DNA of 64,000 nucleotides. Source: Cloacibacillus sp. (GTDB taxonomy: Bacteria; Synergistota; Synergistia; Synergistales; Synergistaceae). Below, one piece after another: positions 10,396-30,118 of this stretch. The position numbers were made by a program, and so were the translations under genes. Every line of letters starts with the position of its first letter. The stretch's first letter is position 1. The notes beneath the pieces were generated by a model that was not told the origin of the DNA, searched no databases, and saw only the letters and a list, made by a program, of their open reading frames with translations. Location: assembly GCA_036655895.1 (NCBI GenBank), contig JAVVPF010000001.1, forward strand, positions 62,001-126,000, given 5' to 3'.

Positions 10396-10446
10396 AGACG
10401 CCGCACCGTCGTACCTTTGGACCGCATAAGTTCCATGACTATCGCG

Positions 10447-10452
10447 TATAAT
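10447..10452 (+). promoter_or_regulatory. -10 element upstream of rqcH
   Basis: A TATAAT hexamer lies 32 bases before the TTG start, in the short gap after the preceding gene. The -35 is not obvious. Confidence 0.4.
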
Positions 10453-10484
10453 GGGATGTAAACTGTTTATAGGGAGGCGGAATT

Positions 10485-12122
10485 TTGTCATTTGGACCGG
10501 AACTTATCTGGATTTGGACGCGCAGGCTGTCGTCGCTTGCAGGAAGGCGCGCCCAGCGCGTTGACGGCGTGAACAATTCCGCCCTTATCTCATTTGGGTC
10601 GAGCGATCTGCTTCTTTCATGGGGCGCGCAAAACTGCGGCGCCGCTTTGATCTCGCCGCGCGATAAAAAGGCGCTTATGGCCTCGTCCACGCAGACGCCG
10701 CCAATCACCAACGCAATAAAAAGCCACCTGACCGGCGCTCAGCTTTGCGCAGTAGAACAGCTTCGGCGCGACCGTGTGATGCGTTTTGCTTTTCAGAAGA
10801 CCGTAGGGGCGGGTTTTACAACGACGAGACATCTGATACTAGAGGTGATGGAGCGCTACAGCAACCTATTGCTGACGGACGAAGATGGCGTCATTATCGA
10901 AACGGCGAAGCACATCCACCCGGCGGACAACGCATTCCGCACAGTGCTTCCCGGCCTCTTGTATCATTTGCCGCCAGAGTTTGAGGGAGTTTCACTAGAG
11001 GAATGGCTTGCCGCGCCCTCTTCTGAAACGCTGCCAAAGGTGGCGGGCTTTGGCCGGCCGCTATTGAAGATGCTTTCCGCATGGGAACCGGAACGCGCCG
11101 CCGCTCTGCTTGCCGGTTTTTATAAAGACGGCGGTACGGAGGCCTATATAACGCAGAAGGTCGGCAAATACTTCACAGCGCTGCCGCTGCTGCTTGATGG
11201 GGCGGAGGCGGTGGACGAAGATTCAGGACGCGCCGCGGCGCTTGCGCCTCTGAAAGATTCCGCAATAGAAGCCAGGCTGAAAAAAATAAAACAGCATCTA
11301 AACAAAGAGATCGTTAGGCGGGAGCGTCAGTGCGCGGACATAAAGGAGCTGCTTTCCTCCGAAGGTGCGGAAAAATACAGGCGCTGGGGTGAACTGATCG
11401 TGGCGAACCTATGGCAGATCAAGCGCGCGGAGCCAGAGGTGCTGCTGGAAGGCTATGACTCGGAGGGCCGCAAGATTGAGGAGACGGTGCCGATAGAGGC
11501 AAGGTATTCAGTCGCCCAGAACGCGGAACGGTACTTCGCTAAGTATAAAAAAATGACCTCCGCCAAAGAGCACGCGGCAGAACTGCTCGTTGCGGTGGAG
11601 GCGGAGCTTGACGATTTAAACGAAGAGTACGAACTTGCCTGCTGCATGAACGAGGCGGCCGATATAGAAATGATGGAAGAGGAACTGGGGCTTGCGAAGC
11701 TAAAGCCGCAGAAACGCGGGGGTGCGAAGAAAAAAGAGACGCTGCCTCCGCACAAGCGGTTTGAGTTTGAGAATGCGATAGTATTCGCCGGCCTTTCCTC
11801 AAAGGGCAACAGATACGTTACCTTTAGGCTTGCGCAGCCCGACGACGTGTGGTTCCACGCACAGGGCGTACCGGGTTCGCACGTCATCCTGCGCCTTGCC
11901 GCAACCCCCTCCGATGAAGAAAGAGAACGTCTCTATCTGTTCTGTGCCTCTGTAGCCGCCTATTACAGCAAGGCGCGTGCAAACACGCGCCAGAGGGTAG
12001 ATCATACTCTTAGAAAACATGTGAGCGCTATACGCGGCGGAGAGGCCAATGTGACCTATAAGGAATTTTCCACGATAATTGCAGACCCTGACGAATGGAC
12101 TCGTGAAACCAAAGAGGAATAA
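10485..12122 (+). CDS. rqcH: RqcH / NFACT-family ribosome quality control factor
   Basis: A 545-residue homologue of RqcH (Rqc2/NEMF; formerly annotated fibronectin-binding protein A). The NFACT-N domain is recognisable from residue 4 (ELIWIWTRRLSSL) and around 95-135 (DRVMRFAFQK, LILEVMERYSNLLL). Coiled-coil segments follow at about 260-420. The C-terminal NFACT-R domain has DVWFHAQGVPGSHVIL and GEANVTYKEFS. RqcH binds obstructed 50S subunits and recruits tRNA-Ala to add C-terminal alanine tails that mark stalled peptides for degradation. The start is TTG, with AGGGAGG 7 bases upstream. The gene is monocistronic and ends at a strong terminator. Confidence 0.9.
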   Translation: MSFGPELIWIWTRRLSSLAGRRAQRVDGVNNSALISFGSSDLLLSWGAQNCGAALISPRDKKALMASSTQTPPITNAIKSHLTGAQLCAVEQLRRDRVMRFAFQKTVGAGFTTTRHLILEVMERYSNLLLTDEDGVIIETAKHIHPADNAFRTVLPGLLYHLPPEFEGVSLEEWLAAPSSETLPKVAGFGRPLLKMLSAWEPERAAALLAGFYKDGGTEAYITQKVGKYFTALPLLLDGAEAVDEDSGRAAALAPLKDSAIEARLKKIKQHLNKEIVRRERQCADIKELLSSEGAEKYRRWGELIVANLWQIKRAEPEVLLEGYDSEGRKIEETVPIEARYSVAQNAERYFAKYKKMTSAKEHAAELLVAVEAELDDLNEEYELACCMNEAADIEMMEEELGLAKLKPQKRGGAKKKETLPPHKRFEFENAIVFAGLSSKGNRYVTFRLAQPDDVWFHAQGVPGSHVILRLAATPSDEERERLYLFCASVAAYYSKARANTRQRVDHTLRKHVSAIRGGEANVTYKEFSTIIADPDEWTRETKEE

Positions 12123-12138
12123 AGATATAAAAAACTGC

Positions 12139-12171
12139 CCGCCGCCATATCAAGTATGGCGGCGGTTTGTT
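12139..12171. terminator. Intrinsic terminator between rqcH and rluD
   Basis: An 11-base perfect stem CCGCCGCCATA/TATGGCGGCGG with a 5-base loop (TCAAG), followed by TTTGTTATT on the + strand. A short A run on the other side could also let it work for rluD. Confidence 0.85.
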
Positions 12172-13156
12172 ATTTCCTTGCCTCTTGCAGGAAATCGCTC
12201 AGTTCCTTTGGCAGAGGCTGCGTAAAAAGCATCTGTTCTCTTGTGCGCGGATGAGTGAAGCCGAGCTTCCACGCGTGCAAAAAGAGCCTTTCCGGGCCGA
12301 ATGGCGACTGCCGGGACGGCACGTAGAGCCTATCGCCAACCAGAGGACATTTTATCGCCTGCATGTGTACGCGTATCTGATGCGTGCGTCCGCTGTGAAG
12401 GATACATTTGACGAAAGAATAGTTGTTTCTGCTCCATAACTGAACGTAGTCCGTCCAGGCCTCGCGGCCGTCCTCCACGCAGGCCATGCGCAGCCTGTTG
12501 TGCGGGTCGCGGTCTATCGGGTATGTTATCGAGCCCGCTGCGGCGGGCGTCTTGCCGTAGGCCAGCGCAAGATATTCTTTTCTTATGCGGCGCTCTTTAA
12601 AGTCGTTGAAAAGCCCCTCCTGCGCGAGGCCGTTTCTTGCGACGACCATCAGGCCTGAGGTCGTTGCGTCAAGCCTGTGTACGATGCCGGGGCGTTTTAC
12701 GCCGTTCAGCGTCCCCAGGTCGGGATACCTGAACAAGAGCCCGTGAACCAGCGTGCCGGTCCAGTGCCCGGGCGCGGGATGGACGACGAGGCCGGCTGGT
12801 TTGTTTATAACGATGAGGTCTTCGTCTTCGTAGACCGTTTCAAAGGCGACGTTCTGCGGCTCGAGATCCAGCGTCTCCGCTGGCGGAATTACTACTGTCA
12901 GAACGTCTCCTTCGTTCACCTTTATAGACGGTTTTATCCGGCGTTCTGGCGAAAGCAGCGCATGTCCCTCTTTGATAAGTTTTTGCGCAAATCCGCGGCT
13001 CAAACCCATAACGCGCGAGAGCGCGAAGTCAAGCCTGTGGCCCTGCATCTCCGCTCCCAGCTCAAAGCGCTGAGGCTCGGAAGAGGGGGCGGCGCAGAGC
13101 CCCTCCCCCTCTTCCGGAATAAATATACTGCCAGGATTACAGATTGTGGACGACAT
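12170..13156 (-). CDS. rluD: RluD-family large-subunit rRNA pseudouridine synthase
   Basis: Up to 328 residues: an S4-like RNA-binding domain (about 38-100; LDFALSRVMGLSRGFAQKLI) and the RluA-type catalytic domain with HRLDATTSG, which contains the catalytic Asp, then GRTHQIRVHM. It converts uridines in 23S rRNA to pseudouridine. The gene overlaps the end of ileS by 20 bases if the first ATG is used. That ATG lacks a ribosome site, whereas the ATG at 13046-13048 (MQGHRLDF) has GGAGCGGAG before it, so a start there (292 residues) is possible. The next gene downstream converges at a terminator. Confidence 0.88.
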   Translation of the reverse strand: MSSTICNPGSIFIPEEGEGLCAAPSSEPQRFELGAEMQGHRLDFALSRVMGLSRGFAQKLIKEGHALLSPERRIKPSIKVNEGDVLTVVIPPAETLDLEPQNVAFETVYEDEDLIVINKPAGLVVHPAPGHWTGTLVHGLLFRYPDLGTLNGVKRPGIVHRLDATTSGLMVVARNGLAQEGLFNDFKERRIRKEYLALAYGKTPAAAGSITYPIDRDPHNRLRMACVEDGREAWTDYVQLWSRNNYSFVKCILHSGRTHQIRVHMQAIKCPLVGDRLYVPSRQSPFGPERLFLHAWKLGFTHPRTREQMLFTQPLPKELSDFLQEARK

Positions 13157-16538: not shown

Positions 16539-17489
16539 CTACGCTTTTGCCGCGAGCCTGTCCAGCAGCATTGCAATGAGCTTATAAGACATAACCTTCA
16601 CCTTTGGCGAGACCACAGATTCCCTTATCTGCCCCGCCTGCTTTTTGATTTCAGAAAACGCGGCTTCAGTCAGTCGTTCGACGTCAGAAATATTTTCGTC
16701 AAGCAGCGTCGCCGTCTCTTCAAGTTCTACCGGGACGGCGCCTACTGCTCCGGCTACGACCTTTGCGCACCTTTTTTCTGATGGGAGCCTCACCGCGAAG
16801 TTGACAAGCGGAAAATCTATAGAGGCGCGCACGCTGTATTTAAAAAAACAGCTTTTTTCATCAAGAGGCGCCTTTTTGACGCGTATCGCCGTGATGATAA
16901 AATCGCTGTTTTCCTCAACAAGTCCGTTTCTCTCACTGTGTCTTGCTATCAACTGCCCTATCGGAACGACAGAACATTTTCCATCTTCTATCATCTCAAC
17001 CTCAGCGTCGTACAAAAGAAGAGCCGTGGCAGTGTCGGAATAGTAGATGGCTTTACAGGTCTTTGAGTTGGGTATCTGGTGGCACTTGTCGCCGCCGGTT
17101 TTGAAACAGGGCGGAAACGAACTTCTCCACTCGCGTGACTGATTGAAATAGACGCACCTGCGGTCCTGCATTATGTTGCCGCCTATGGTCGCCGTGTTTC
17201 TTATCTGCGGGGACGCCGTCTCCTGCGCGCTTTCTGCAAGCGCCGGAAGATTTTTTCTGATGCCGTCGTTTTCCGCTATCTGTGCAAGAGTGACGCAGGC
17301 GCCTATCGTAAAGGCGGTTTCGTCGGACGTTATCGTTTTACATTCCGCAATGCCGCTTATGTCTATCATATCCGTCCGCGGTTTCACTCCGAGGTGCAAA
17401 AGCGGCATAAGGTCGGTGCCGCCCGCTATTACTCGGCCGTGATATTTTTCGTCTGTAATGTCCTTTAGCGAATCCACTTTGATATACAA
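16539..17489 (-). CDS. FAD-binding subunit of a molybdenum hydroxylase, with HcrB-type [4Fe-4S] insertion
   Basis: A 316-residue protein of the CoxM/XdhB family. FAD-binding motifs are VIAGGTDLMP (about 20) and TATIGGNIMQ (about 99). Directly after the second comes an insertion with four cysteines, 112, 128, 136 and 145 (C-x15-C-x7-C-x8-C; RRCVYFNQS, PPCFK, DKCHQ, KTCKA). This insertion is the hallmark of the beta subunit of 4-hydroxybenzoyl-CoA reductase, where it holds an extra [4Fe-4S] cluster used in reductive chemistry; ordinary xanthine dehydrogenases lack it. The gene is last in the operon, 12 bases after the molybdopterin subunit. Substrate is unknown; the context suggests an imidazole-type product of the lyase. 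Confidence 0.85.
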   Translation of the reverse strand: MYIKVDSLKDITDEKYHGRVIAGGTDLMPLLHLGVKPRTDMIDISGIAECKTITSDETAFTIGACVTLAQIAENDGIRKNLPALAESAQETASPQIRNTATIGGNIMQDRRCVYFNQSREWRSSFPPCFKTGGDKCHQIPNSKTCKAIYYSDTATALLLYDAEVEMIEDGKCSVVPIGQLIARHSERNGLVEENSDFIITAIRVKKAPLDEKSCFFKYSVRASIDFPLVNFAVRLPSEKRCAKVVAGAVGAVPVELEETATLLDENISDVERLTEAAFSEIKKQAGQIRESVVSPKVKVMSYKLIAMLLDRLAAKA

Positions 17490-17501
17490 AAAATCACCCC
17501 G

Positions 17502-19739
17502 CTATATTTTGTTGGGCAGCACGATGAACTGCTCGCAGAGAGGAAGGTTTGTGACCTCCTGCCCGCTGGCTCTTCTTACCGCGTTTACGATAGCTGGCGC
17601 AATTGGCACCGTGCTAAGTTCTCCTACGCTCTTTGCTCCGTAAGGGCCGTCCGGCTCCCAGCCTTCGGCAATGAGCGCGTGGATGCGCGGCATGTCGGCC
17701 ATCAGCGGGATCTTGTAATGCAGAAGGTCTGTTGACATAGGCTTTTTTGCGAAATTGTTTATCTGTATCTGCTCCGTGAGCGTGTATCCCACGCCCTGCG
17801 CCGCGCCGCCCTCTATCTGTCCCTCTACGGTGAGCGGGTTTATCGGCGTGCCTACGTCGACGGCCTCTATCAGGTGCAGGAGGCGTATCGCGTTGAGTTT
17901 TTTATGATATTCCGCCTTGACCATGCAGACAGAGAACGGATTGGGACAGGCCGCCGCTTTGTAGTCTCCCCTGCCGATTATCGTTCCGCCGCGCTGGTTG
18001 AAGAAGACCTCTTTTGCCGCCTCTTTTACGCTGAGATTTTTTTCGCCTGCTATGAACCGGCCCTCTTCAAAGAGCACGGGAGCGTTTGATATGCGCGAAA
18101 GCCTTTCCTGGATCGTGGCTATAAGATCCTGCCCCGCCCGGAGCACGGCGTTTCCGCATATAAAGGTCTGGCTGCTGCCGAATGTGCCGGTGTCGTACGG
18201 AGTGAATTTTGTATCCGCCGCGGTTACTGTGATATCCTCAAGCGGTATGTCCAGCGTCTCCGCCGCTATTTGCGCAAGCATAGTTTCGCTGCCCTGTCCG
18301 ATGTCGGAAGAGCCAACCTGGAGTTCCGCGCTGCCGTCGTCGTTCATTATGATAACAGCCGAGCTGAGTCCCTCTTTTGAGGACGGGCCTGATCCGTGGC
18401 AGGCGAAGGCGACGCCCCACGCCTGTTTTATATCGTCGTTTTCTATCGTAGCTTCGTTTTTTTCTATTTCATTTTTTTTATCAAGGCAGAGTTTGACGCA
18501 CTGCTCTATCTCGCAGCTAGTAAGCGTCAGCTCCGAGCCGGGGAAATGTCCGCCAACGCGGACGTGGTTTTTCAGCCGCAGTTCGATAGGGTCCATATCG
18601 AGCTTTTGCGCGAGCCTGTCTATTATCACCTCTCTGGCGAAGGCAAGCTGCATGTTTCCGTAGCCTCTGAACGCGCCGGCCGTCGCGTGGTTTGTAAGCA
18701 CGCACCGTCCGTCAAAGAAGTAATTTTTGATGCCGTATTGAAATTTTCTTGCGCCGGCGCACAGCACGGTCGGCCCGTGCGTCGTGTATGGGCCGGTGTT
18801 TAATTTATAGTCCGCGTAAAAGGCCTTTATCTCGCCGTCCGCGCCGGCGCCTATCCTCACACGCGCCCTTGCGCCGTGGCGCACTACCGTCGCGGTCAGC
18901 TCCTCTTCGCGTGTGTTCAATATCTTTACGGGTCTTTTGATCTTCTTTGAGAGAAAGACCGCAGCGGGCTGCGAGTGAAGTTGCTGACGCGCGCCGAAGC
19001 CTCCACCGACCGCGGGCTTTATTATTCTTATTTTATTTTCGCGAAGTCCGCAGAGTTCGCTTATAATTCGCCGCTCCTGAAAGATCGTCTGCGAATTGCT
19101 CCATATTGTGATCTCTTTTCCGCTGCTGAAGTCACAGATGCAGCAGGTCGGCTCAATGGCGGTGTGCTGCATAGGCGGGATGTTGAAGGTCTCTTCAAGG
19201 ATAATGTCAGATTCCAAAAAGCCATCCTCAACGCAGCCCTCCGTCACCTCTCTCTTCCAGATGACGTTGTCCTCTGAAAGATGCGGCTCAATAGTTTCCG
19301 CGCCCTCTTTAAGCGCCTCATCTATTGAAAAAAGCGGCTTTTTTTCCTGATATTCTATCTTTACTGCGCGGCAGGCCGCTTCGCAGGCCTCGGGCGAGTT
19401 CGCGGCGATGCACAGTATCCTGTCGCCCGCGCATTTCGGCTGCATAGTAAGTATCTTTTCATCTTTTAAGAGCAGCGCGGAGGGCGGGTTGCCGGAACAG
19501 TTGTACAGCGTCTGCGGCACCTCGTCGGGAAGCAGCGCCGCGATATATCCTGGCACCTTTTCAGCCTCTTTAAGGTCGATTGCGAGTACGAGGGCGTTTG
19601 CGTATTCGCTTCTTATCACCTTCGCGTAGGCCATGTTCGGAAGAGATATGTCGTCAGTGTATACTGCTTTGCCAGAAAGTTTATCGGCGGCTTCCAGCCT
19701 TACCGGCGAATGTTTTACAGTTTTAAAAACTTTTGTCAT
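17502..19739 (-). CDS. Molybdopterin-binding catalytic subunit of a molybdenum hydroxylase (set 1)
   Basis: A 745-residue XdhA/CoxL/HcrA-type subunit. Landmarks: GGGFGARQ in the first molybdopterin-binding region, GAFRGYGNMQ, and GPYGAKSVGE near the C-terminus carrying the Glu used as catalytic base. The ATG at 19737-19739 overlaps the stop of the iron-sulfur subunit gene (TGATG); an upstream in-frame extension is rejected because it lies inside that gene. With its small and flavin partners it forms a three-subunit enzyme that oxidises or reduces a heteroaromatic or aromatic substrate. The substrate cannot be read from sequence. Confidence 0.88.
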   Translation of the reverse strand: MTKVFKTVKHSPVRLEAADKLSGKAVYTDDISLPNMAYAKVIRSEYANALVLAIDLKEAEKVPGYIAALLPDEVPQTLYNCSGNPPSALLLKDEKILTMQPKCAGDRILCIAANSPEACEAACRAVKIEYQEKKPLFSIDEALKEGAETIEPHLSEDNVIWKREVTEGCVEDGFLESDIILEETFNIPPMQHTAIEPTCCICDFSSGKEITIWSNSQTIFQERRIISELCGLRENKIRIIKPAVGGGFGARQQLHSQPAAVFLSKKIKRPVKILNTREEELTATVVRHGARARVRIGAGADGEIKAFYADYKLNTGPYTTHGPTVLCAGARKFQYGIKNYFFDGRCVLTNHATAGAFRGYGNMQLAFAREVIIDRLAQKLDMDPIELRLKNHVRVGGHFPGSELTLTSCEIEQCVKLCLDKKNEIEKNEATIENDDIKQAWGVAFACHGSGPSSKEGLSSAVIIMNDDGSAELQVGSSDIGQGSETMLAQIAAETLDIPLEDITVTAADTKFTPYDTGTFGSSQTFICGNAVLRAGQDLIATIQERLSRISNAPVLFEEGRFIAGEKNLSVKEAAKEVFFNQRGGTIIGRGDYKAAACPNPFSVCMVKAEYHKKLNAIRLLHLIEAVDVGTPINPLTVEGQIEGGAAQGVGYTLTEQIQINNFAKKPMSTDLLHYKIPLMADMPRIHALIAEGWEPDGPYGAKSVGELSTVPIAPAIVNAVRRASGQEVTNLPLCEQFIVLPNKI

Positions 19740-20221
19740 CAAACGCACCTGCTCTCCTTGATTCTTTGAGCGGCAAGCATGACGGCGCTTTCGATTTTCG
19801 TATAGCCGGTGCATCTGCACAGATTTCCGGCCATAGCCGCTCGCACTTCAGAGGGGGACGGCTCCGGCCTCTTTTTCAGGAACGCGGCGGCGGTGAGCAC
19901 CATGCCCGGGATGCAGTATCCGCACTGTACGGCGCCCGCGTCGTAAAAGGCGCTCTGCACTATCTCAATTTCGCGAAAGGCGCCGGCTCCTTCGATCGTC
20001 CGTATGTTTGCGCCGTCTGCCTTAAGCGCCGGCATGATGCACGACAAAACTGGCTGGCCGTCTAGCAGCACGGTGCACGCGCCGCATTCGCCGCTGTCGC
20101 AGCCTCTTTTGCAGCCTTTAAGGCCGGCCTTTTCTCTTATCATATCCAATAGCGTCATATCTTCGGGGACTTCAAATGTAAGCGGCTTGTCGTTGAGGGT
20201 TACGCATATCTTATAATTCAT
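19739..20221 (-). CDS. [2Fe-2S] subunit of a molybdenum hydroxylase (set 1)
   Basis: A 160-residue protein with two [2Fe-2S] domains: a ferredoxin-like one (GCKRGCDSGECGACTVL, fourth Cys in VLSC) and a helical one (CGYCIPGM and CRCTGY). It passes electrons between the molybdenum and flavin subunits. It opens the second half of the operon, after a strong hairpin, and is coupled to the catalytic subunit by a one-base overlap. Confidence 0.9.
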   Translation of the reverse strand: MNYKICVTLNDKPLTFEVPEDMTLLDMIREKAGLKGCKRGCDSGECGACTVLLDGQPVLSCIMPALKADGANIRTIEGAGAFREIEIVQSAFYDAGAVQCGYCIPGMVLTAAAFLKKRPEPSPSEVRAAMAGNLCRCTGYTKIESAVMLAAQRIKESRCV

Positions 20222-20238
20222 ATCAATGACCTCGAAAT

Positions 20239-20267
20239 TAAAGAGGGCTGGGAGGCAGCCCTCTTTA
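20239..20267 (-). terminator. Hairpin between the lyase gene and hydroxylase set 1
   Basis: A perfect 12-base stem TAAAGAGGGCTG/CAGCCCTCTTTA with a 5-base loop. On the minus strand it is followed by ATTTCGAGG, with only short T runs, so it may be a leaky terminator or an mRNA processing/stability element that lowers expression of the downstream hydroxylase genes. Confidence 0.6.
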
Positions 20268-20287
20268 AATGGATTTGGTGGCTCCTG

Positions 20288-21811
20288 CTACTTGATGATT
20301 TTCTCTTTGACCTCTTTGATAAGTTTGCCGCTTTTTACAAATTCGAACGCCTTCTGGATGTCGGGCGATATCGGCCTGTCATTCGTGTAAAGCGGTATCT
20401 CTTTTCTAAAGGCTTGATAGGCCAGTTCCGTGCCTTTGCCAAGCGTAAATTCTTCCTGCATCTTTCTCAGGTCTATCGCCTGACAGGCGTGGATCGTCTC
20501 CATGCCGTAGATGTACTGAAGATTTTCTACGATCTGACGCAGATGCTGCGCCACTATCGAGATGTTGTTGGCGTGGTCCTCGATTGAGCCGGAGAGCGAG
20601 AGATAGTCGACGCTGCACGGGTTGGAGAGGTGTCTGATCTCCGTGTCGAGAGAGGCGAATGTCTTCTGGAATGTGCCGAAGCAATGCGATTCCCCACCGT
20701 CATGGCTGAGGAAGCGCGGCAGTTTTGTGAGCACCGGGTTTGCCAGCCTGATCATACGGTAGCAGGACATGCGCGAGACGTGGGTCAGCACTATCGAGAG
20801 CATCTCCATCGCTGTGGCGAGCGTCGTCGTCTCAAAGTTTGAATTTGAGATGATACGCCTTTCGTCTAAAAGAACGCATGGATTGTCGTCTGTCGAGTTC
20901 ATCTGGATGTATAGATATTTTTCAACGTAGGCGAGAGCGTCTCTCAGCGAACCGTTTACGTACGCGGCGCCGCGGAAACAGAGTGCGTCCTGTACCGGCT
21001 TGCCGGGGTAGGTTTTGTAAATGTCGCTGCCTTCGATGTATTTGCTGACGTTGGCAGCGCTCTCCGTCTGTCCGTCAAGTTTTCTGGCGGCCATAACGGC
21101 TGGGTCGAGCGGCGAGGTGTTGCCGTGCAGACCTTCGAGCGAGAGCGCGGAGATGATGTCTCCCATGTCCGCGAGCTCTCTCAGTTCTTTGATCGCAAGG
21201 GCCGCTTCGCCGGCAGAGAAGGAGCTTGAACTGACGATTGCAAGTCCGTCTTTCGGGCCGAGCGTCACCGGTTCCAGACCGGCAAGCTTGTGAGCCTCGG
21301 CTGACGGCATTCTGACGCCGTTGTAATTTACAAAGCCCTCGCCTATCATTGCAAGGCCGATATGGGAAAGCAGCGTGATGTCCCCTTCTCCGACGGAGCC
21401 TCTTTCCGGCATGACTGGGTGTATTCCGCAGTTCAGCAGCTCCGCGTAGCGTATCGCGATGGCGGGCTGAATGCCGGTGTAACCCTGCAGCAGGCAGTTG
21501 AGGCGTATCGCCATGATGGCGCGCACCTCTTTTTCAGAGGCTTCCGGCTTGATGCCGAGAGAATGCGAATATATGAGCTTGCGGTTGAAGGACTCAAAAA
21601 ATCCCTTCGCAATCGTGTGGTCTTTGTTCCAGCCGACGCCGGTGTTGAATCCGTATACGGGAACGTCCGAGTCGACGAGATCGTAAACGAGCTGTCTGGA
21701 TTTTATAAGTCTTTCCTCCGCGTCGGCGCTTACTTCAACTTTAGCTCCGTTTACAGCAATTTCCCATACTTTTTCGATTGTAAGGCCGTCGCCTGTAAGT
21801 GTAATAGTCAT
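20288..21811 (-). CDS. MIO-less aromatic amino acid lyase homologue, candidate ergothionase
   Basis: A 507-residue member of the histidine/phenylalanine ammonia-lyase fold: YGFNTGVGW with the conserved Tyr53, PERGSVG (135-141), VDYLSLSGSIEDH near the C-terminus. Histidine ammonia-lyases read GSVGASGDL here; this protein reads GSVGEGDIT, so the Ala-Ser-Gly that cyclises to the MIO electrophile is missing. The NGTQ motif that supports MIO is also replaced, by SSSS at 194-197. Known members without MIO include ergothionase, which eliminates trimethylamine from ergothioneine to give thiourocanate; a trimethylammonium group leaves without MIO help. The betaine-type transporter next door supports a betaine substrate. 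Hercynine or another betaine are alternatives. hutU and hutI are not nearby, arguing against ordinary histidine breakdown. Confidence 0.7.
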   Translation of the reverse strand: MTITLTGDGLTIEKVWEIAVNGAKVEVSADAEERLIKSRQLVYDLVDSDVPVYGFNTGVGWNKDHTIAKGFFESFNRKLIYSHSLGIKPEASEKEVRAIMAIRLNCLLQGYTGIQPAIAIRYAELLNCGIHPVMPERGSVGEGDITLLSHIGLAMIGEGFVNYNGVRMPSAEAHKLAGLEPVTLGPKDGLAIVSSSSFSAGEAALAIKELRELADMGDIISALSLEGLHGNTSPLDPAVMAARKLDGQTESAANVSKYIEGSDIYKTYPGKPVQDALCFRGAAYVNGSLRDALAYVEKYLYIQMNSTDDNPCVLLDERRIISNSNFETTTLATAMEMLSIVLTHVSRMSCYRMIRLANPVLTKLPRFLSHDGGESHCFGTFQKTFASLDTEIRHLSNPCSVDYLSLSGSIEDHANNISIVAQHLRQIVENLQYIYGMETIHACQAIDLRKMQEEFTLGKGTELAYQAFRKEIPLYTNDRPISPDIQKAFEFVKSGKLIKEVKEKIIK

Positions 21812-21855: not shown

Positions 21856-23421
21856 TTATTCAGAGACCTTATCAAAAAAGAATACTTTGACGAACGATAT
21901 GACTTGCAGCACAAATATGAAGAGCACTACGAAGCCGGCTGCCGCGGCAAGCGCCTTGACGCCGTCCACGCCCTGCGCGCCTCCGCCGAAGGCCGCCATG
22001 ATGATTGCGACTATGCCGACAGATACGCCCCAGACAACCTTGACCTTCGCGGGAGGCTCTGTGCCTATCGGAACGTTTCTCATGCACATTGAACCGATGT
22101 TGGTGAGTGTCGCGTCAGCGCAGGTGATGAAGGAGGCGAGTATTACGAGGATGTTGATAGGCAGTACGATGTAGCCGAGTCCGAACGGAAGGTGCTTGAG
22201 GAACTCCCAGAGCGCCATTATAGCGCCGCCGCTGTTGATGGCGCCCACAAGGTCCGCGCCGCCGGTCATCTGCATGTGCATCGCGCTGCCGCCCCAGATG
22301 GCGAACCAGAATATGCCAAATACGGAGGGAAGGATCCAGTTTACGACCATGTATTCGCGGACGGTCCTGCCGTATGAGAGCATGGCGAGGAATATCCCTG
22401 TGACGGGAGCGTAGCCGACCCAGAAGGCCCAGTCAAAGAGCGTCCATGAACGTGTAAGCGCGGGGCCGCCGATGTCGATCGGGTCAAGTCCCCAGAGCCA
22501 GAAGTTGTGGAACCATTCCGCAAGCCCAGCGGTGCCGATGCGGACTATGAAGAGCGTAGGCCCAGTTACCAGAAGAAGGATGAGCAGTCCGTAGTAGAAC
22601 CACGCGTTGAGCGAGCCTACGATTTTAAGTCCCTTGTCAAGCCCGACATAGGTCGAGAAGGTGAAGGCGCAGATTATAGCGGCGCCGATGCCGATGAAAA
22701 GAGGCAGGCTTTCGGCGATGCCGTATCCGCTTTTGAGGCCCGTGACGGTGAGGGTGATGCACATCGTAAGTCCGGTGGCGAGGCCTATCGTGAGGGCGAG
22801 CATTGAAAGCGTGTCGATTATAGCGGAGGCAAACGGCGTTGTGATACGGTCGCCGAAGAGGGGCTTCAGTGTAGCGGTTACGGTGAGGCTGTCCTTCTTA
22901 TGGTAATAGATATAGGCGACGAGCAGTCCGCACATCGCGTATATGGCGTAGGGTACGAAGGTCCAGTTGTAGTAGGTACGGGCCATGGCGAAGATGGCGG
23001 CCTGTGTTGTGCCGGGCTTTATGCCAAGTGTGTTGAGCTCGCCCCAGACGTTGCCGTAGTAGATGAGCGGTTCATTGACGCCCCATGTTACGATGCCCGT
23101 CGCTATGCCGCCGGTGAGCGTCATTGCGAACCATGTCCAGAAGCCGTATTTAGGCTTCGCGTCTTTGCCGCCGATGCGCATCTTGCCGAGTTTGGTAAAT
23201 GTGGCTACAACTACGAGGACGAAGCTTGCCATGATGGCGAGCTGGTAGAGCCATCCAAAGCTGTCGAGCGACCAGAAGAAAAACAAATTGCTTGCCTTTG
23301 TCAGCGCGTCCTTATCAACGATGCCGACTATTGCCGCGAGCGCCACCACTATGTAGGCGGGAATAAAAACCTCCCAGCGGATGGACTTTTTCAGGTCTGT
23401 TTCTTTCTTGCTTGGATCCAT
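21856..23421 (-). CDS. BCCT-family betaine/carnitine/choline-type transporter
   Basis: A 521-residue membrane protein with about 12 helices. The family core is around residues 325-355: WTLFDWAFWVGYAPVTGIFL followed by SYGRTVREY, and an earlier helix contains GIATGIVTWGVNEPL. BCCT carriers move quaternary ammonium compounds such as glycine betaine, carnitine and choline, either with Na+ or as exchangers. Its place between a molybdenum hydroxylase and the MIO-less lyase suggests uptake of a betainised amino acid such as ergothioneine, or exchange for trimethylamine or another product. An AAGGAGG site precedes the ATG. It is 44 bases from the lyase and 47 from the upstream gene, within one operon. 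Confidence 0.9.
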   Translation of the reverse strand: MDPSKKETDLKKSIRWEVFIPAYIVVALAAIVGIVDKDALTKASNLFFFWSLDSFGWLYQLAIMASFVLVVVATFTKLGKMRIGGKDAKPKYGFWTWFAMTLTGGIATGIVTWGVNEPLIYYGNVWGELNTLGIKPGTTQAAIFAMARTYYNWTFVPYAIYAMCGLLVAYIYYHKKDSLTVTATLKPLFGDRITTPFASAIIDTLSMLALTIGLATGLTMCITLTVTGLKSGYGIAESLPLFIGIGAAIICAFTFSTYVGLDKGLKIVGSLNAWFYYGLLILLLVTGPTLFIVRIGTAGLAEWFHNFWLWGLDPIDIGGPALTRSWTLFDWAFWVGYAPVTGIFLAMLSYGRTVREYMVVNWILPSVFGIFWFAIWGGSAMHMQMTGGADLVGAINSGGAIMALWEFLKHLPFGLGYIVLPINILVILASFITCADATLTNIGSMCMRNVPIGTEPPAKVKVVWGVSVGIVAIIMAAFGGGAQGVDGVKALAAAAGFVVLFIFVLQVISFVKVFFFDKVSE

Positions 23422-23468: not shown

Positions 23469-25694
23469 TTAACGCCTGGTTGATGCCGCTATCTTTGCCG
23501 GTGTGAGCGGAAGCTCCGTAAGCTCCGTACCGAGCGCTCTGTTTACCGCGTTTACGATGGCCGCAGATACCGGTACAGTGCTTATTTCGCCGATGCTCTT
23601 TCCTCCGTAGGGGCCGCCCGGCTCGCCGTCTTCAATGAGCATGATCTCCACATCCGGCATGTCCGGCGCGTTTATCATGTGGTATTTATCGAAGTTGCCC
23701 GCCTTCGGCATTCCATTTTTATCAAAGGCGAGCTCCTCGCAGAGCGCCATGCCTATGCCCATCTGGACGCCGCCGTATATCTGGCCGTCTACGAAATTTC
23801 TGTTGATGCTCTGTCCTACGTCGTGGACGGCGAGGTATTTGTCTATCTTCACCAGTCCAGTAAGTTTGTCCACCGTCACCTGTGCGAAGTGCACGCCAAA
23901 CGACGCGGGGTTGCTTTCGGGCGCGTGTTCGTAATGCGCCTCGATGGAGCGGCGGCTTTTGAGCATTATCTGACGCACCGCCTCTCCTATCTCAATGGTT
24001 TTGCCGTCTATCAGCAGTTTTCCGTCAACAAGTTTCGCTGGCGCGTCGTATATCTTTGAAGCCTCGGAGCAGAGCAGCTTTACGGCTTCTTCGGAAACGA
24101 GACGTGCGCACTCGCCGCAGACGTAGATGACGCGGCTTGCCTGACAGCCTGCGTCGTACGAGCTGTAGTTTGTATCTCCCTCTGTCACCGTTATCTTTGA
24201 AAGCTCTATGCCTGTGGCCTCCGCCGCTATCTGCGCGATCGCCGTCAGCGTGCCGTTGCCCAGCTCGTGCAGCGCGGTGCGCAGTATCGCGGAACCGTCC
24301 TCCAGTATGCGCATGGACATCTGTGTGACGTCATGATAGATGGTTTTATAATAGCCGTTGCCGTGCGTGCAGCAGGCAAATCCGGCGGCTGTGGCAAAAC
24401 GCCCGTCGGCGCTTACGATCGGCTTTTGCAGGTTCTCCCAGTCAAAGCGCCGCGCTCCGCGTTCGAGGCATTCGATGACGCGCGCTTTGCCTATATTGGA
24501 GGCGCCGCTTGGGTCGTTCTCCCATTCGTGAAGGAGGTTTTTCAGGCGGAACTCTACTGGGTCAAGGCCAAGCCTCGTACACATGAGGTCGGTGTGGATC
24601 TCGGTTATCGTATGTATCTGCGGCGAGCCGTATCCGCGGCACGCGCCTGCGGGCGTAGTCGATGTCCTGACGGTGCGCCCATGGTAGCTTAACGCCGGCA
24701 CGCGGTAGAGGCGCGAGGCCTTTTTGCCCATCGCCATCATCACTTTTTTTGTTCCGGAGAGGTAGGCTCCCGCATCTGCCGTTATCTCAAATTTGCGGCC
24801 CGTTATTACGCCGTCTGCGTCAAGCGCCGTTGAGACAGTGCCCAGCACGGCGGCGCGCGTCCTTGTGGAATGCATTGTTTCCGTTCTGTTCGTCGTTATG
24901 AAGACCGGACGCTTCAGCCTCCACGCGGCCCACGCGCAGAGCGGTTCAAAGACGCTCTCCTGTTTTCCGCCGAATGTGCCGCCCATGTTTGCCTTTATGA
25001 CGCGTATCTTTGAAAGAGGTATAGGAAGCACCTGCGCTATGGCGTGCTGTACTCCGAAAAGTATCTGACACGGCGTATGCACCTCTATCGCGTTTGCAGG
25101 ACGCGGCATCGCCAGGACGCAGTGCGTCTCCATCGCCGCGTGATGTATTTTTGGAGTGTATATGGTGTCTGTTTCAACGTGGGCTGCCGATGCGAACGCT
25201 GCCTCTGCGTCTCCGTAGCCGAGCGCGCCTTCAAAATCATCCATGCCGTCTTCGTGCAGCCTATCTGCGTTTTTGCCGGCCTCTTTTATGTCGACGACGG
25301 CAGCCAGCGGTTCGTATTCTACCTTGACCAGTTTGAGCGCGCGGCGGGCTTTTTCTTCCGAATCTGCCAGCACAAGCGCTATCCGGTCGCCGACGTGTCT
25401 TGCGTGGCGAGTGAGGATGGTTTCGTCGGGAAAGTCGTTCTGCCCCGGAAACCATTCGCCGCTGTTGTATTTATTCTGCGGCGCGTCAAGAAAGGTGAGG
25501 ACGATAGCACCCTCTTCTTGTGCAGAAGAGGCGTCTATTGATTTGACGATAGCGTTTGGATATTCTGAAAGCAGCGGAACGCCTACGAGCGTTCCCGCCG
25601 GCAGTTCGTCCGCAAGATAGGTATAGCTGCCGCGCGCCTTTTCCTGCGCGTCGTCGCGCAATATTCTTTTTCCGATATATTTATAATCAGCCAT
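23469..25694 (-). CDS. Molybdopterin-binding catalytic subunit of a molybdenum hydroxylase (set 2)
   Basis: A 741-residue XdhA-type subunit with MGGTFGGKQE, ACRGYGSPQ and the C-terminal GGPYGGKSIGE carrying the catalytic Glu. The start at 25692-25694 (MADYKYIGK) overlaps the FAD gene by 8 bases; the longer upstream frame lies inside that gene and is rejected. It is clearly divergent from set 1 in sequence, so the two sets are not a recent duplication and probably act on different substrates. Closest in style to xanthine dehydrogenase or purine hydroxylase D-type subunits; the true substrate is unknown. Confidence 0.88.
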   Translation of the reverse strand: MADYKYIGKRILRDDAQEKARGSYTYLADELPAGTLVGVPLLSEYPNAIVKSIDASSAQEEGAIVLTFLDAPQNKYNSGEWFPGQNDFPDETILTRHARHVGDRIALVLADSEEKARRALKLVKVEYEPLAAVVDIKEAGKNADRLHEDGMDDFEGALGYGDAEAAFASAAHVETDTIYTPKIHHAAMETHCVLAMPRPANAIEVHTPCQILFGVQHAIAQVLPIPLSKIRVIKANMGGTFGGKQESVFEPLCAWAAWRLKRPVFITTNRTETMHSTRTRAAVLGTVSTALDADGVITGRKFEITADAGAYLSGTKKVMMAMGKKASRLYRVPALSYHGRTVRTSTTPAGACRGYGSPQIHTITEIHTDLMCTRLGLDPVEFRLKNLLHEWENDPSGASNIGKARVIECLERGARRFDWENLQKPIVSADGRFATAAGFACCTHGNGYYKTIYHDVTQMSMRILEDGSAILRTALHELGNGTLTAIAQIAAEATGIELSKITVTEGDTNYSSYDAGCQASRVIYVCGECARLVSEEAVKLLCSEASKIYDAPAKLVDGKLLIDGKTIEIGEAVRQIMLKSRRSIEAHYEHAPESNPASFGVHFAQVTVDKLTGLVKIDKYLAVHDVGQSINRNFVDGQIYGGVQMGIGMALCEELAFDKNGMPKAGNFDKYHMINAPDMPDVEIMLIEDGEPGGPYGGKSIGEISTVPVSAAIVNAVNRALGTELTELPLTPAKIAASTRR

Positions 25695-26529
25695 TGTTTT
25701 CAGCCTCCTCCGCCCTTTTGAGCAGTTCGGCGTAAATATCCATTGCGAGCGCGCGAAGGGCAGACTGTTTGTAGGCGAGCGTCGGGCGTCCAGGTATCTG
25801 ACGCGCCGCAAATGAGGCAAGGGCGTCGGCAAGTTCCGTATGCGCGCCGCGGCAAAGCGCCTCTGAGGCCTCTTCGCTGAATCTGGCGGCGGCGCCAAGC
25901 GTGCCGACAAATACTTTTGCCTGCGTGAATTTGCCGCGCGAGCATACGGCGCAAGCCGCCATGTTTACGCGGGAGATGCTTACCTGTCTCCTGCTGCCTA
26001 TTTTCATAAAGGCGGAAATTGATTTTTGGTCTATTTCGATGAGAAATTCTTTTATCACTTCGCCTGGCGCAAGCGGAGCTTTTCCGCTGCTGGCAAGTTC
26101 TGATACGGGCGCGCGGCGCGCGCCGTTCTTTGATACTATGACGGCGTATGCGTTAAGCGCGCAGAGCGCGGCGGGAGTATCGGCCGCGGGAGAGCCGTTT
26201 GCCACGTTTCCGCCTACTGTGGCTCTTGCGCGTATCTGCTCTGAGCCCATCACGTAGGCGGCGTCAGAAAGCGCTGAGGCGTATCTTCTGACGAGCGGGC
26301 TTTTGTGGAGCGCCGTCATTGTCTCCGAGGCGCCTATTCTGAGTTCTCCGTTTATTATTTCTATTCCTTTAAGTTCGTTTACGCAAGAGATGTCGGCGCA
26401 GAGCGTATCCTGCGTCAAATTTGAGCGGCGGGCTATCATCCAGTCCGTGCCTCCGGCTATAAGTTCCGGCGCATCATATTCGTATGAAAAAAGTTCTGTG
26501 AGCGACGAGGGGCGTACCAGTATGCTCAT
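25687..26529 (-). CDS. FAD-binding subunit of a molybdenum hydroxylase (set 2)
   Basis: A 280-residue protein of the CoxM/XdhB family with LIAGGTDWMI (about 20) and ATVGGNVANGSPAADT (about 101). Unlike its counterpart at the operon end it lacks the four-cysteine insertion, so it should carry FAD only. It transfers electrons from the iron-sulfur subunit to an acceptor such as NAD+ or a ferredoxin. Its start shares a base with the stop of the iron-sulfur gene, and its end overlaps the catalytic subunit. Confidence 0.88.
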   Translation of the reverse strand: MSILVRPSSLTELFSYEYDAPELIAGGTDWMIARRSNLTQDTLCADISCVNELKGIEIINGELRIGASETMTALHKSPLVRRYASALSDAAYVMGSEQIRARATVGGNVANGSPAADTPAALCALNAYAVIVSKNGARRAPVSELASSGKAPLAPGEVIKEFLIEIDQKSISAFMKIGSRRQVSISRVNMAACAVCSRGKFTQAKVFVGTLGAAARFSEEASEALCRGAHTELADALASFAARQIPGRPTLAYKQSALRALAMDIYAELLKRAEEAENNG

Positions 26530-26999
26530 CAGTTTTTCGCCTCAAGGCGGTTTGCCGCCTCTGTTACCGCGTTTATGATGGGGACGTATCCGGTGCAGCG
26601 GCAGATGTTGCCGGCCAGCGCGCGTTTTATTTCGTCTTTTGAAGGATGTGGGTTTTTCAGCAGCAGCGCCTTCGCCGACATTATCATCCCTGGAGTGCAG
26701 AATCCGCACTGGATCGCGTCACAGTCGATAAAGGCCTGTTGGATGACGTCAAGCTCGCCGCTTTTCGCAAGTCCCTCTATTGTTGTGACGGAGGCTCCGT
26801 CCGTCTGGACGGCCGGTACAACGCAGGAGCATACCGCCTCGTCGTTGAGCAGCACGGTGCACGCGCCGCATTCTCCGGCTCCGCAGCCCTCTTTTACGCC
26901 TGTGAGTCCGAAGTCGTTTCTTAACATATCTATGAGGCGTGTATCGGCCTGCACTTCGGCGCTTCGCAGTTCTCCGTTGAGTGTCAAAGAAATAAGCAT
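26529..26999 (-). CDS. [2Fe-2S] subunit of a molybdenum hydroxylase (set 2)
   Basis: A 156-residue protein with two [2Fe-2S] domains: GCGAGECGACTVL with a fourth Cys in CSCVV, and CGFCTPGM with CRCTGY. First gene of the whole leftward operon, with a GGGGGGAA ribosome site and a good promoter just upstream, facing the divergent regulator gene. It links molybdenum and flavin centres in set 2. Confidence 0.9.
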   Translation of the reverse strand: MLISLTLNGELRSAEVQADTRLIDMLRNDFGLTGVKEGCGAGECGACTVLLNDEAVCSCVVPAVQTDGASVTTIEGLAKSGELDVIQQAFIDCDAIQCGFCTPGMIMSAKALLLKNPHPSKDEIKRALAGNICRCTGYVPIINAVTEAANRLEAKN

Positions 27000-27136: not shown

Positions 27137-30118
27137 ATGAAACTAGAACTCGCGCTCTTTGGCGAATGCGAAATAATATATGAAGGCAAAAGGGTTCAGT
27201 TTAAATTCCGTAAGGCGGAGGCTCTTTTTTACTATATCGCCTTAAACGGCGGCGCTTCCCGAGACGAACTTAAGACGCTCTTCTGGCCTGAGATGAGCGA
27301 ATCGCAGGCCTCGTCAAATCTGCGCAACGCGCTCTATCTGATAAAATCCCAGATGCCGGAGGCGCTTTTCGCGGACCGTCAAAATGTTCGTGCCGCTGCG
27401 TTCGACGACGGTCTTTTTGCGCTCCAAAGGCTGTGCAGCCCAAAGACGCCGCTACCGGAGATGATATTTTCCACTCCGCTTCGAGACTACTGCGCAAATT
27501 CCGAGCCGCTCAGCGAATGGCTTGAAGGCCGCCGCGCCAAAATAAACGCGGATATCGTAGAGATCATAAAAAAACGCGCCGATGCAGCATACGAGAGCGG
27601 AGAGACTGAAGCTGTGCGCACCGCGCTGGAAGCAGAGAGAAGGCTTGACCCGTTCGACGAATGCTCGATGCTGGAGCTCATGGAGCTGTACCTCAAGAGC
27701 GGAGAGCGCGGCAAGGCGGTTTTAGTTTATAAAAACTTCGCGGCGGCGCTTAAGGAAAAACTTTCTCTTGAACCCTCCGACCGAGCGCAGAAATATTACG
27801 CCTCTATAGTGAACCCCGAGCCCGCGCCAAACGAACTGCTGCGCTTCAGGTGCAGAAAGCGCGAGCTTGCGCTGCTTACCGACGGACTTTCAAAGGACAG
27901 AAGAGAAAAAAATATATTTCTTATAGAGGGAGAGGCCGGCATCGGAAAATCAGCCCTCGTAGACGAAGCGTTAAGGACCTTGCAGCATGACGCGACGCTT
28001 GTACTGGCTACTAAGGCCACTCCGATAGGCGAAGGATGCGGCTATTCCGCGTGGAATAATTTCATGACGGAGGCGCTCTCCGCCTGCGCGGAGCGAGGCG
28101 TCGTGCCTGAAACAGGCGCGCTTGCGGTGCTTGGCGCCATCTTCCCGTGCATCCTTCAAAACGGCGGCGCCAGCTTCAACGCGGACATCATGCGTGCCGC
28201 TGAAATAAACCCCGTCACCGTGGCGTCGCTCATCGCGGAACTTTTAAGGCCGCTTTCTTCTCTCTCTCAAATAGTCTTTATCTTTGAAGACGTGCACTGG
28301 TTTGACGACGAATCGTTCAAATTGATGGGCGCGCTGCTTTCCGCCGCGAAATATCCGTATAAGGCGCTCATCACGGCGAGGCCTGAGGCGGCGGCCGGCG
28401 CTTCGTCTCTTCTGCGGCAGCTGAACGCCGGAGCAAGGATCCACGAATTAAAACTGCGCCCGTTCAGGGACGACGAGATACTTTTTATAAGCCGTTCGCT
28501 TCTTCCTAAAAGCACAATGGAACAAAAGGGCGACGCCTACTTTATACGCGAGAGCGAAGGGCTTCCGCTAATGCTCTTTGAGATGCTGCGAGCGCTGCGC
28601 GAGGACCCGCGTTCTGAATGCGAAAAAGGACTGGGCGTCATGGTTTGGAACAGGATAGGGACGCTCGGCGCCGCGGAAAAAAAGATACTGTCGGCCGCCG
28701 CCGTCTGCATCAGCGGCACTCCGGCCGTTATTTCAGAGATGACCGGCATGACTCAACAGCGCGTCATATATTCGGCAAACGCCCTCATTGCGAGGGGCCT
28801 GCTCTGCGAAAGGCAGGAGGGACGGCAGACCGTATGGGGATTTTTACACCAGAAGCTCCGTGAATGCGTCTACGCCGCGATACCGTATGAGAACCGCAGG
28901 GAGCTTCACGCAAAGGCCGCGGCCGCGCTCAGCGCGCGCTACGCCCCGCAGCGCTGGGACCCGGCGCTTGGCGCTATGCTCTGTCATCATTACATCGAGG
29001 CCGGAGACCGCGTCTCCGAACTGAAACAATATCTTAGCGAATTGATATTTGAGATAACGCTGAACCACGACATTTTCCCGACGCTCTCCGACAGGCTTTT
29101 CCTCTCATGCTCCACGCCGTACAGCAGCCGCGAGGAGACTGAAAAAAAGATAGGGCGCGTCATTGACATACTGGACGAGCTGCGCTGCGAGAACTCAATG
29201 AAGGAAGAGGACTTCGCCCGTCTGGAAGCCACCTCCTATGAGCTGGCCGGCGGCTTTCATATCTTTTGGGGCGAATATGAAAAGGGCAAGGTCTTCACTA
29301 GAGAGGCGCTTTCAATCACAAAGAGATACTGCCTCGACGAGACCTCCGTCTACTGCCTCAAACATTACTGCTACATGTATATCCAGATAGCGGACACAAA
29401 GAACCTGCGCCGCGCGGCGCGCGAGCTGCTACGGCAGTCAAAAAAGGCGGGGCTTGGGCAGTATTTCGCGACTGCGATAAGGTTCATCGGAATGGCCGCC
29501 TTTATGGAATCGGACTACGACCTGGCTGAAAAGATATTCAGGCACTCAATAAAAAAGTTTGACGAACTTCGACTCATTGGACGGCGCTACACTCTCGGCA
29601 TACTCGTCGCAAAATGCTACCTAGGAGAGATAGCGCAAAGACGCGGCCTCTTTGAAGAGGGTGCCGCCTTCTTTGCTGAATGCGCCGCGAAGTGCGAAGA
29701 GATGAAGCTTTTCTGGGGCAGGAGTTATTTTCATATGGCCGCAGCGAACATAGCCGTCGATATGAACGACATGCCGGAATTTTTCCGTCAGATAGACGAC
29801 GCGGTCTCGCTCTTTGAAAGCTGCCGCGGAGGACGTTGCGGCTCGATACTTTACAGCCTGAAGGCGATCGCAGACGCCGAAAGGCTCGATTTTGCCGGCG
29901 CAAAACGCGCCTACGAAAAGGCGGAGCTGCTGATAAAGCATGTACCGAGAATAGAGTGGATGGCGGCGCAGCACTTGGCCGCCGCGTGGATCGCAAGGCT
30001 TTCAGGGTACGATGCTTCGGACGACGCGGCGATGGCCGTGAAGCTGTATGAAAAAATAGGCTTTACGCTGAGGGCGCGCGCGATACGCGAAAAGTTCGCG
30101 CTGGCGCAGGAGCGCTGA
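27137..30118 (+). CDS. Large BTAD/AAA-type transcriptional activator (SARP- or MalT-like), divergent from the catabolic operon
   Basis: A 993-residue regulator. Residues 1-90 form an OmpR-like winged helix (FRKAEALFYYIAL, FWPEMSESQASSNLRNALYLIK). About 95-235 is a bacterial transcriptional activator (BTAD) domain (RRLDPFDECSMLELMELYLKSG-type repeat). An AAA/NTPase module follows with Walker A GEAGIGKS near 268 and Walker B IFEDVHWFDD near 385. The remaining 500 residues are helical, TPR-like repeats that probably sense a ligand or partner. Such proteins are ATP-dependent activators. Position and divergent promoters make it the likely regulator of the leftward operon. GGAGGA precedes the ATG. 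A strong terminator closes the gene. Confidence 0.82.
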   Translation: MKLELALFGECEIIYEGKRVQFKFRKAEALFYYIALNGGASRDELKTLFWPEMSESQASSNLRNALYLIKSQMPEALFADRQNVRAAAFDDGLFALQRLCSPKTPLPEMIFSTPLRDYCANSEPLSEWLEGRRAKINADIVEIIKKRADAAYESGETEAVRTALEAERRLDPFDECSMLELMELYLKSGERGKAVLVYKNFAAALKEKLSLEPSDRAQKYYASIVNPEPAPNELLRFRCRKRELALLTDGLSKDRREKNIFLIEGEAGIGKSALVDEALRTLQHDATLVLATKATPIGEGCGYSAWNNFMTEALSACAERGVVPETGALAVLGAIFPCILQNGGASFNADIMRAAEINPVTVASLIAELLRPLSSLSQIVFIFEDVHWFDDESFKLMGALLSAAKYPYKALITARPEAAAGASSLLRQLNAGARIHELKLRPFRDDEILFISRSLLPKSTMEQKGDAYFIRESEGLPLMLFEMLRALREDPRSECEKGLGVMVWNRIGTLGAAEKKILSAAAVCISGTPAVISEMTGMTQQRVIYSANALIARGLLCERQEGRQTVWGFLHQKLRECVYAAIPYENRRELHAKAAAALSARYAPQRWDPALGAMLCHHYIEAGDRVSELKQYLSELIFEITLNHDIFPTLSDRLFLSCSTPYSSREETEKKIGRVIDILDELRCENSMKEEDFARLEATSYELAGGFHIFWGEYEKGKVFTREALSITKRYCLDETSVYCLKHYCYMYIQIADTKNLRRAARELLRQSKKAGLGQYFATAIRFIGMAAFMESDYDLAEKIFRHSIKKFDELRLIGRRYTLGILVAKCYLGEIAQRRGLFEEGAAFFAECAAKCEEMKLFWGRSYFHMAAANIAVDMNDMPEFFRQIDDAVSLFESCRGGRCGSILYSLKAIADAERLDFAGAKRAYEKAELLIKHVPRIEWMAAQHLAAAWIARLSGYDASDDAAMAVKLYEKIGFTLRARAIREKFALAQER

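Follow-up and report, generated by a model that had tools for sequence, protein, structure and literature searches.

The 64,000-nucleotide stretch of Cloacibacillus DNA analysed here (the window) encodes a homologue of histidine ammonia-lyase (HAL) that lacks the Ala-Ser-Gly (ASG) triad and is very probably an ergothionase, that is, an MIO-free lyase predicted to convert ergothioneine to trimethylamine and thiourocanate, with the BCCT transporter and the first molybdoenzyme (trio A) of its operon probably serving the same pathway. We infer substrate and product from the sequence, loop, residues, fold, clade and synteny of the lyase, all of which were established directly in this analysis. The MIO-free ergothionase family is known, and it explains the missing triad, which is not novel in kind; the window lyase is a further member, located in a BCCT/molybdoenzyme operon. 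Ergothionase sets the share of ergothioneine, an antioxidant from the diet, that gut microbes destroy and turn into trimethylamine. According to a BLAST-based study from 2026, the enzyme occurs in only a few genera, with the concession that divergent homologues were not counted (PMC13405746). The operon in the window is conserved, serves uptake and breakdown in an anaerobe of the gut type, and contains the probable ergothionase hidden by automatic labels; a simple sequence rule (G-x-x-D loop without the triad, plus Lys63/Lys383) could serve to re-annotate this hidden gut pathway.

The lyase ORF starts with ATG, contains no internal stops and matched PF00221 over its full length with 484 bits, which assigns it to the aromatic amino acid lyase fold. 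The first-pass annotation had reported a loop GSVG-EG-DI, one residue short of GSVG-ASG-DL, together with SSSS in place of NGTQ and a retained Tyr53, and the translated ORF agreed with this description in every detail checked. The ASG-type lyases encoded elsewhere in the same genome (on C10 and C21) have the loops GSVGASGDL or GSVGSSGDL and an NGT motif downstream, whereas the window lyase has a loop shorter by one residue without a Ser at the triad position, so that MIO cannot be built. The short loop was also present in all 83 aligned relatives, which come from many genomes, and in PDB entry 6s7j, and is therefore neither chance nor a sequencing slip. Asn195 and Tyr280 of HAL (P. putida numbering) corresponded to Ser194 and Leu277 in the window lyase. 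These positions are mostly Ser and Leu throughout the MIO-less family (Leu277 in 79/83), and SSSS is a minor variant of the consensus S-S-N-A of the 83 relatives. A sequencing error or pseudogene, considered as an explanation, was ruled out by the loop comparison within the genome, the 83 relatives and the dN/dS value given below. The features of the locus are listed in Table 1.

Table 1. Coordinates of the lyase gene, its diagnostic codons and the surrounding operon in the window.
Feature	Position	Strand	Remarks
MIO-less lyase, probable ergothionase (ergothioneine trimethylamine-lyase)	20288..21811	-	507 aa; PF00221, 6s7j identity, fold, clade
Loop codons, residues 138-145 (GSVG-EG-DI in place of GSVG-ASG-DL)	21377..21400	-	
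SSSS codons, residues 194-197, in place of NGTQ	21221..21232	-	HAL Asn195 replaced by Ser
Lys63 codon, candidate catalytic residue	21623..21625	-	83/83 of MIO-less family, absent in HALs
Lys383 codon, candidate catalytic residue	20663..20665	-	77/83 of MIO-less family, Tyr in HAL
Glu411 codon	20579..20581	-	HAL Glu414; invariant in MIO-less family
BCCT transporter, probable ergothioneine importer	21856..23421	-	PF02028; identity to T. denticola BCCT
Trio A Mo-binding subunit, xanthine-oxidase type, candidate thiourocanate desulfhydrase	23469..25694	-	start ATG 25694 rather than TTG 25910
Trio A FAD subunit	25687..26529	-	
Trio A 2Fe-2S subunit	26529..26999	-	
Trio B 2Fe-2S subunit	19739..20221	-	
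Trio B Mo-binding subunit	17502..19739	-	best PDB match 4-hydroxybenzoyl-CoA reductase alpha; start ATG 19739
Trio B FAD subunit, four-Cys insert (C-X15-C-X7-C-X8-C)	16539..17489	-	aligned to 1rm6_B (4-hydroxybenzoyl-CoA reductase beta)
Hairpin between lyase and trio B, terminator- or attenuator-like	20238..20268	-	short U run
Large regulator, BTAD + AAA domains, candidate operon regulator	27137..30118	+	divergent from operon

The best match of the lyase in a sequence search of the PDB was the Treponema denticola ergothionase 6s7j (497 bits, E 7e-148; 48% identity over the full length), compared to 244 bits (E 4e-71) for the best HAL. The loop of 6s7j reads SSIGEGDIT and its NGT site VSCNA. 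An AlphaFold model of the lyase, built from a 12-sequence alignment (pLDDT 82.8, pTM 0.86), also retrieved 6s7j first in a structure search (Z 45.8, rmsd 2.2 over 490 residues; HALs at most 43.0), and Foldseek gave E 1e-39 for 6s7j versus 6e-31 for HALs. The lowest pLDDT values (<50) were found at residues 56-67, 140-143 and 409-413, that is, in the active-site loops, as one would expect when a single chain of a tetramer is modelled; since these are the least confident parts of the model, we make no claim on residue geometry.

HutH (P. putida 1b8f; T. acidophilum 7tqr) shares with the window lyase the overall fold (Z ~40-43), Tyr53, His83 and the active-site Arg and Glu, but the window lyase lacks the MIO triad, has lost the equivalents of Asn195 and Tyr280 and has gained Lys63 and Lys383. 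His83 and Glu414 of P. putida HAL bind the imidazole, and their equivalents His83 and Glu411 are consistent with a histidine-derived substrate. The T. denticola enzyme is said, in the work of Maurer and co-workers, to have four essential residues and to operate by substrate activation and acid/base catalysis. It has the same fold, a short G-E-G-D loop, no triad and the residues Y53, K63, H83, R280, K383 and E411 in common with the window lyase, as well as a neighbouring BCCT gene and a xanthine-oxidase-type trio (PDB 6s7j, 6s7q; Maurer et al., 2019). It differs in belonging to another subclade, in Arg57 (Thr57 in the window lyase) and in SCNA instead of SSSS, and trio B was not seen in the T. 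denticola stretch examined (L138). The absence of MIO from ergothionase is stated in PMC13405746, which cites Maurer et al. (2019). Ergothionase had been proposed as a yardstick for the window protein, an apt choice; the earlier note left open that the missing triad is the known hallmark of ergothionase itself.

A scan of genome contigs yielded 75 related loci. They were chosen by peptides including N-x-G-V-G-W-N, so that invariance at positions 55-62 is partly a selection effect; these peptides do not cover Lys63, the loop, Lys383 or Glu411. In the 83 aligned full-length relatives without the triad, the loop follows the pattern G-[E/A/Q/D/M/V]-[A/G/S/D]-D, the residues Y53, K63, D64, H83, D144, R280 and E411 are invariant, all of which the window lyase has, and K383 varies only in six rows, all from one subclade. 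In a tree of 111 lyases, 86 MIO-less proteins formed a single clade with an SH-aLRT of 100; it includes the window lyase, 6s7j and a homologue from Clostridium symbiosum and is separate from the ASG-type HALs and from a group with the loop motif GSVGY. Comparison of the window lyase with its 78%-identical orthologue in G015 gave a dN of 0.16 and a dS of ~1.9, i.e., a dN/dS of ~0.08. The lyase is under strong selection against amino acid change and decay is ruled out; together with the family-invariant residues and the single supported clade, this upholds the earlier judgement of functional divergence rather than decay.

Relatives with the G-x-x-D loop, no triad and Lys63/Lys383 occur in Synergistota, Spirochaetota, many Bacillota (including Clostridium symbiosum, Blautia and Peptoniphilus) and Pseudomonadota, and most of the anaerobes among them have a transporter and a molybdoenzyme of the same kind. 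A plasmid search returned only relatives of at most 41% identity, and those checked, from Polaromonas, Sinorhizobium, Paracoccus and Burkholderia, have the short loop. A role in mimosine/dihydroxypyridine breakdown by rumen Synergistota, an idea prompted by the molybdoenzymes, was dropped because the passages found in PMC12366334 name no such lyase and because members of the family occur in phyla that are not related to each other.

In the order of transcription, the operon comprises trio A (2Fe-2S, FAD and Mo subunits), the BCCT gene, the lyase gene and trio B, separated by gaps of 12-66 bases or overlapping. The hairpin between the lyase gene and trio B had a centroid energy of -20.1 kcal/mol (z -3.05) and was not among the structures listed by the consensus scan; given its strength of about -20 kcal/mol, trio B may be expressed on its own or when transcription reads through. 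In G015 a divergent ORF of 989 aa occupies the same place as the BTAD/AAA regulator, the likeness being one of size and position.

The gene neighbourhood offers the strongest functional evidence for the probable identity as ergothionase. The genome G043 encodes a lyase that matches the 6s7j sequence with 100% identity across 493 residues, and the genes there are arranged in the order lyase, BCCT, XdhC-like, an ORF called MobA-like from its resemblance, 2Fe-2S, FAD and Mo subunit. The BCCT of the window shows 65% identity to the BCCT encoded beside the T. denticola ergothionase gene and 59-70% to those of the T. denticola enzyme's subclade, compared to 38% for the next BCCT of its own genome. 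That both loci have this specific transporter speaks for a common substrate. The Mo subunits of trio A and of the T. denticola locus are 41% identical. Across 61 named loci outside a Paenibacillus group, a trio-A-like Mo subunit was found in 55, a BCCT in 49 and both in 47. A urocanase gene was present within ~10 kb of the lyase gene in 18 of 74 loci; the window genome encodes three urocanases, all away from the operon.

The loci of Paenibacillus, Neobacillus and Cohnella (L044-L049, L053, L054, L057, L058, L067, L090, L092, L093) have kept the lyase without the molybdoenzyme and have instead a glycine-betaine-type ABC importer, an NtaA/DmoA-type flavin monooxygenase and an S-Me-THD-like protein. 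They plausibly represent the aerobic form of the pathway, in which sulfur may be removed by an oxidative route.

In HAL and PAL, MIO is the electrophile that enables removal of NH3, a poor leaving group. Ergothioneine is the betaine of 2-thiohistidine, and its quaternary trimethylammonium group is already a good leaving group. Because it leaves easily, acid/base and lysine residues would suffice and the MIO-forming loop could be lost; elimination would require no more than ring activation and assistance by acid/base groups, for which Y53, K63, K383 and E411 are candidates. The BCCT carrier would import the betaine, the lyase would split off trimethylamine to form thiourocanate, trio A would most likely reduce thiourocanate to urocanate and sulfide, and urocanate would then enter histidine breakdown via the urocanases of the genome. 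We infer the transporter specificity and the role of trio A from the conserved neighbourhood, as it is this position beside the lyase that makes trio A the natural candidate for desulfuration. A gut xanthine oxidase homologue is described as reductively cleaving the aromatic C-S bond in ergothioneine catabolism (Feng et al., JACS 2024/2025, as cited in PMC12771579). As in that gut pathway, a lyase and a xanthine-oxidase-type trio lie in one operon in the window; we liken trio A to the characterised desulfhydrase by gene position alone. Ergothionase activity is reported for C. symbiosum in PMC13405746. C. symbiosum ATCC 14940 (G041) encodes two MIO-less paralogues (C148 and C266), so that the activity cannot be tied to one gene and could belong to either. 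One paralogue is accompanied by a xanthine-oxidase-type trio, the other lies beside a GSVGY-type lyase gene and two BCCT genes.

The alternative that survives best is an MIO-free trimethylamine-lyase that uses the same mechanism on another aromatic betaine, such as hercynine, S-methylergothioneine, ergothioneine sulfonate or another methylated amino acid. With 48% identity only to the characterised enzyme, a separate subclade and the exchange at position 57, a substrate shift within the betaine class is possible, and NCBIfam has a separate S-methyl thiourocanate hydratase, indicating that related substrates are degraded in nature. The second trio of the window, which resembles 4-hydroxybenzoyl-CoA reductase and is absent from most ergothionase loci, points in the same direction. 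We nevertheless consider this reading unlikely, as the BCCT is so much closer to those of the T. denticola locus and subclade than to its nearest counterpart in the genome; for hercynine in particular, a C-S-cleaving molybdoenzyme, as the shared trio A is proposed to be, would find no sulfur to remove.

The Mo and FAD subunits of trio B had 4-hydroxybenzoyl-CoA reductase (1rm6) as best PDB match, at low identity, and all four Cys of the insert in its beta subunit, which bind a 4Fe-4S cluster in that enzyme, are aligned in the FAD subunit of trio B. A CoA pathway was not seen near trio B. Relatives of trio B (50-74%) adjoin genes of aromatic lyases in G015, in G017, where the lyase is of the ASG type, and on a Lawsonibacter contig, which suggests that trio B may act on an aryl-acrylate made by such lyases. 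An extension of this idea is an enlarged anaerobic betaine-degradation operon, in which trio B with its extra iron-sulfur cluster would reduce the aryl-acrylate product of the lyase by a new reaction and the lyase subclade would have shifted off ergothioneine; we regard this combination as quite doubtful.

A label as histidine ammonia-lyase would be wrong, as had been cautioned. The best named NCBIfam model for the lyase was hutH (TIGR01225), at 418.4 bits and thus far below its cut-off of 539.15, and the search matched no ergothionase model, while models for thiourocanate hydratase exist in NCBIfam; a member of the family on a Sinorhizobium plasmid carries the label hutH. An ammonia-lyase for histidine or another aromatic amino acid that works without MIO, or with another electrophile derived from the loop, would account for the common fold and for the retention of H83, R280 and E411. 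It is highly improbable in view of the score, of a triad position without ASG or any Ser, of the changes at Asn195 and Tyr280, and of the separate ASG-type lyases of the genome, the one on C10 lying ~0.2 kb from a urocanase ORF. That the protein is a decayed or non-catalytic HAL paralogue (a pseudoenzyme or structural partner) would fit the loss of the classical catalytic triad but is scarcely credible for a full-length ORF with this dN/dS, family-specific invariant residues and an operon conserved over several phyla.

Other lyases without the triad were met among the relatives. A second HAL-like lineage, which forms a clade of its own (support 100), has a loop shorter by three residues (GSVGY-L.PEAH) without ASG and is often encoded beside an ergothionase-type lyase (G000 C60:4293-5825, i.e., L108 4293-5825; L029, L030, L032, L033, L059, L063, L071, L081, L084, L087, L089, L105). 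In one subclade of the MIO-less family, Lys383 is replaced by Asp or Asn and GPKDG by xxKDAH (L081 790-2310; L082 8408-9952 and 9995-11509; L083, L086, L087), and these residue changes make a different substrate likely. Finally, a HAL-like lyase with the loop GSTGLSDL, also without ASG, is split into two adjacent genes that carry complementary parts of the active site (G000 C3, L106 ~10200-12500, and C12, L107 10414-12757; G015 L101 4888-7245 and L102 5462-7861; L038 8662-11460). Strong matches to it, among 60 relatives, were found only in its own genome and in one other genus, and in G015 the ergothionase operon begins with such a split pair.
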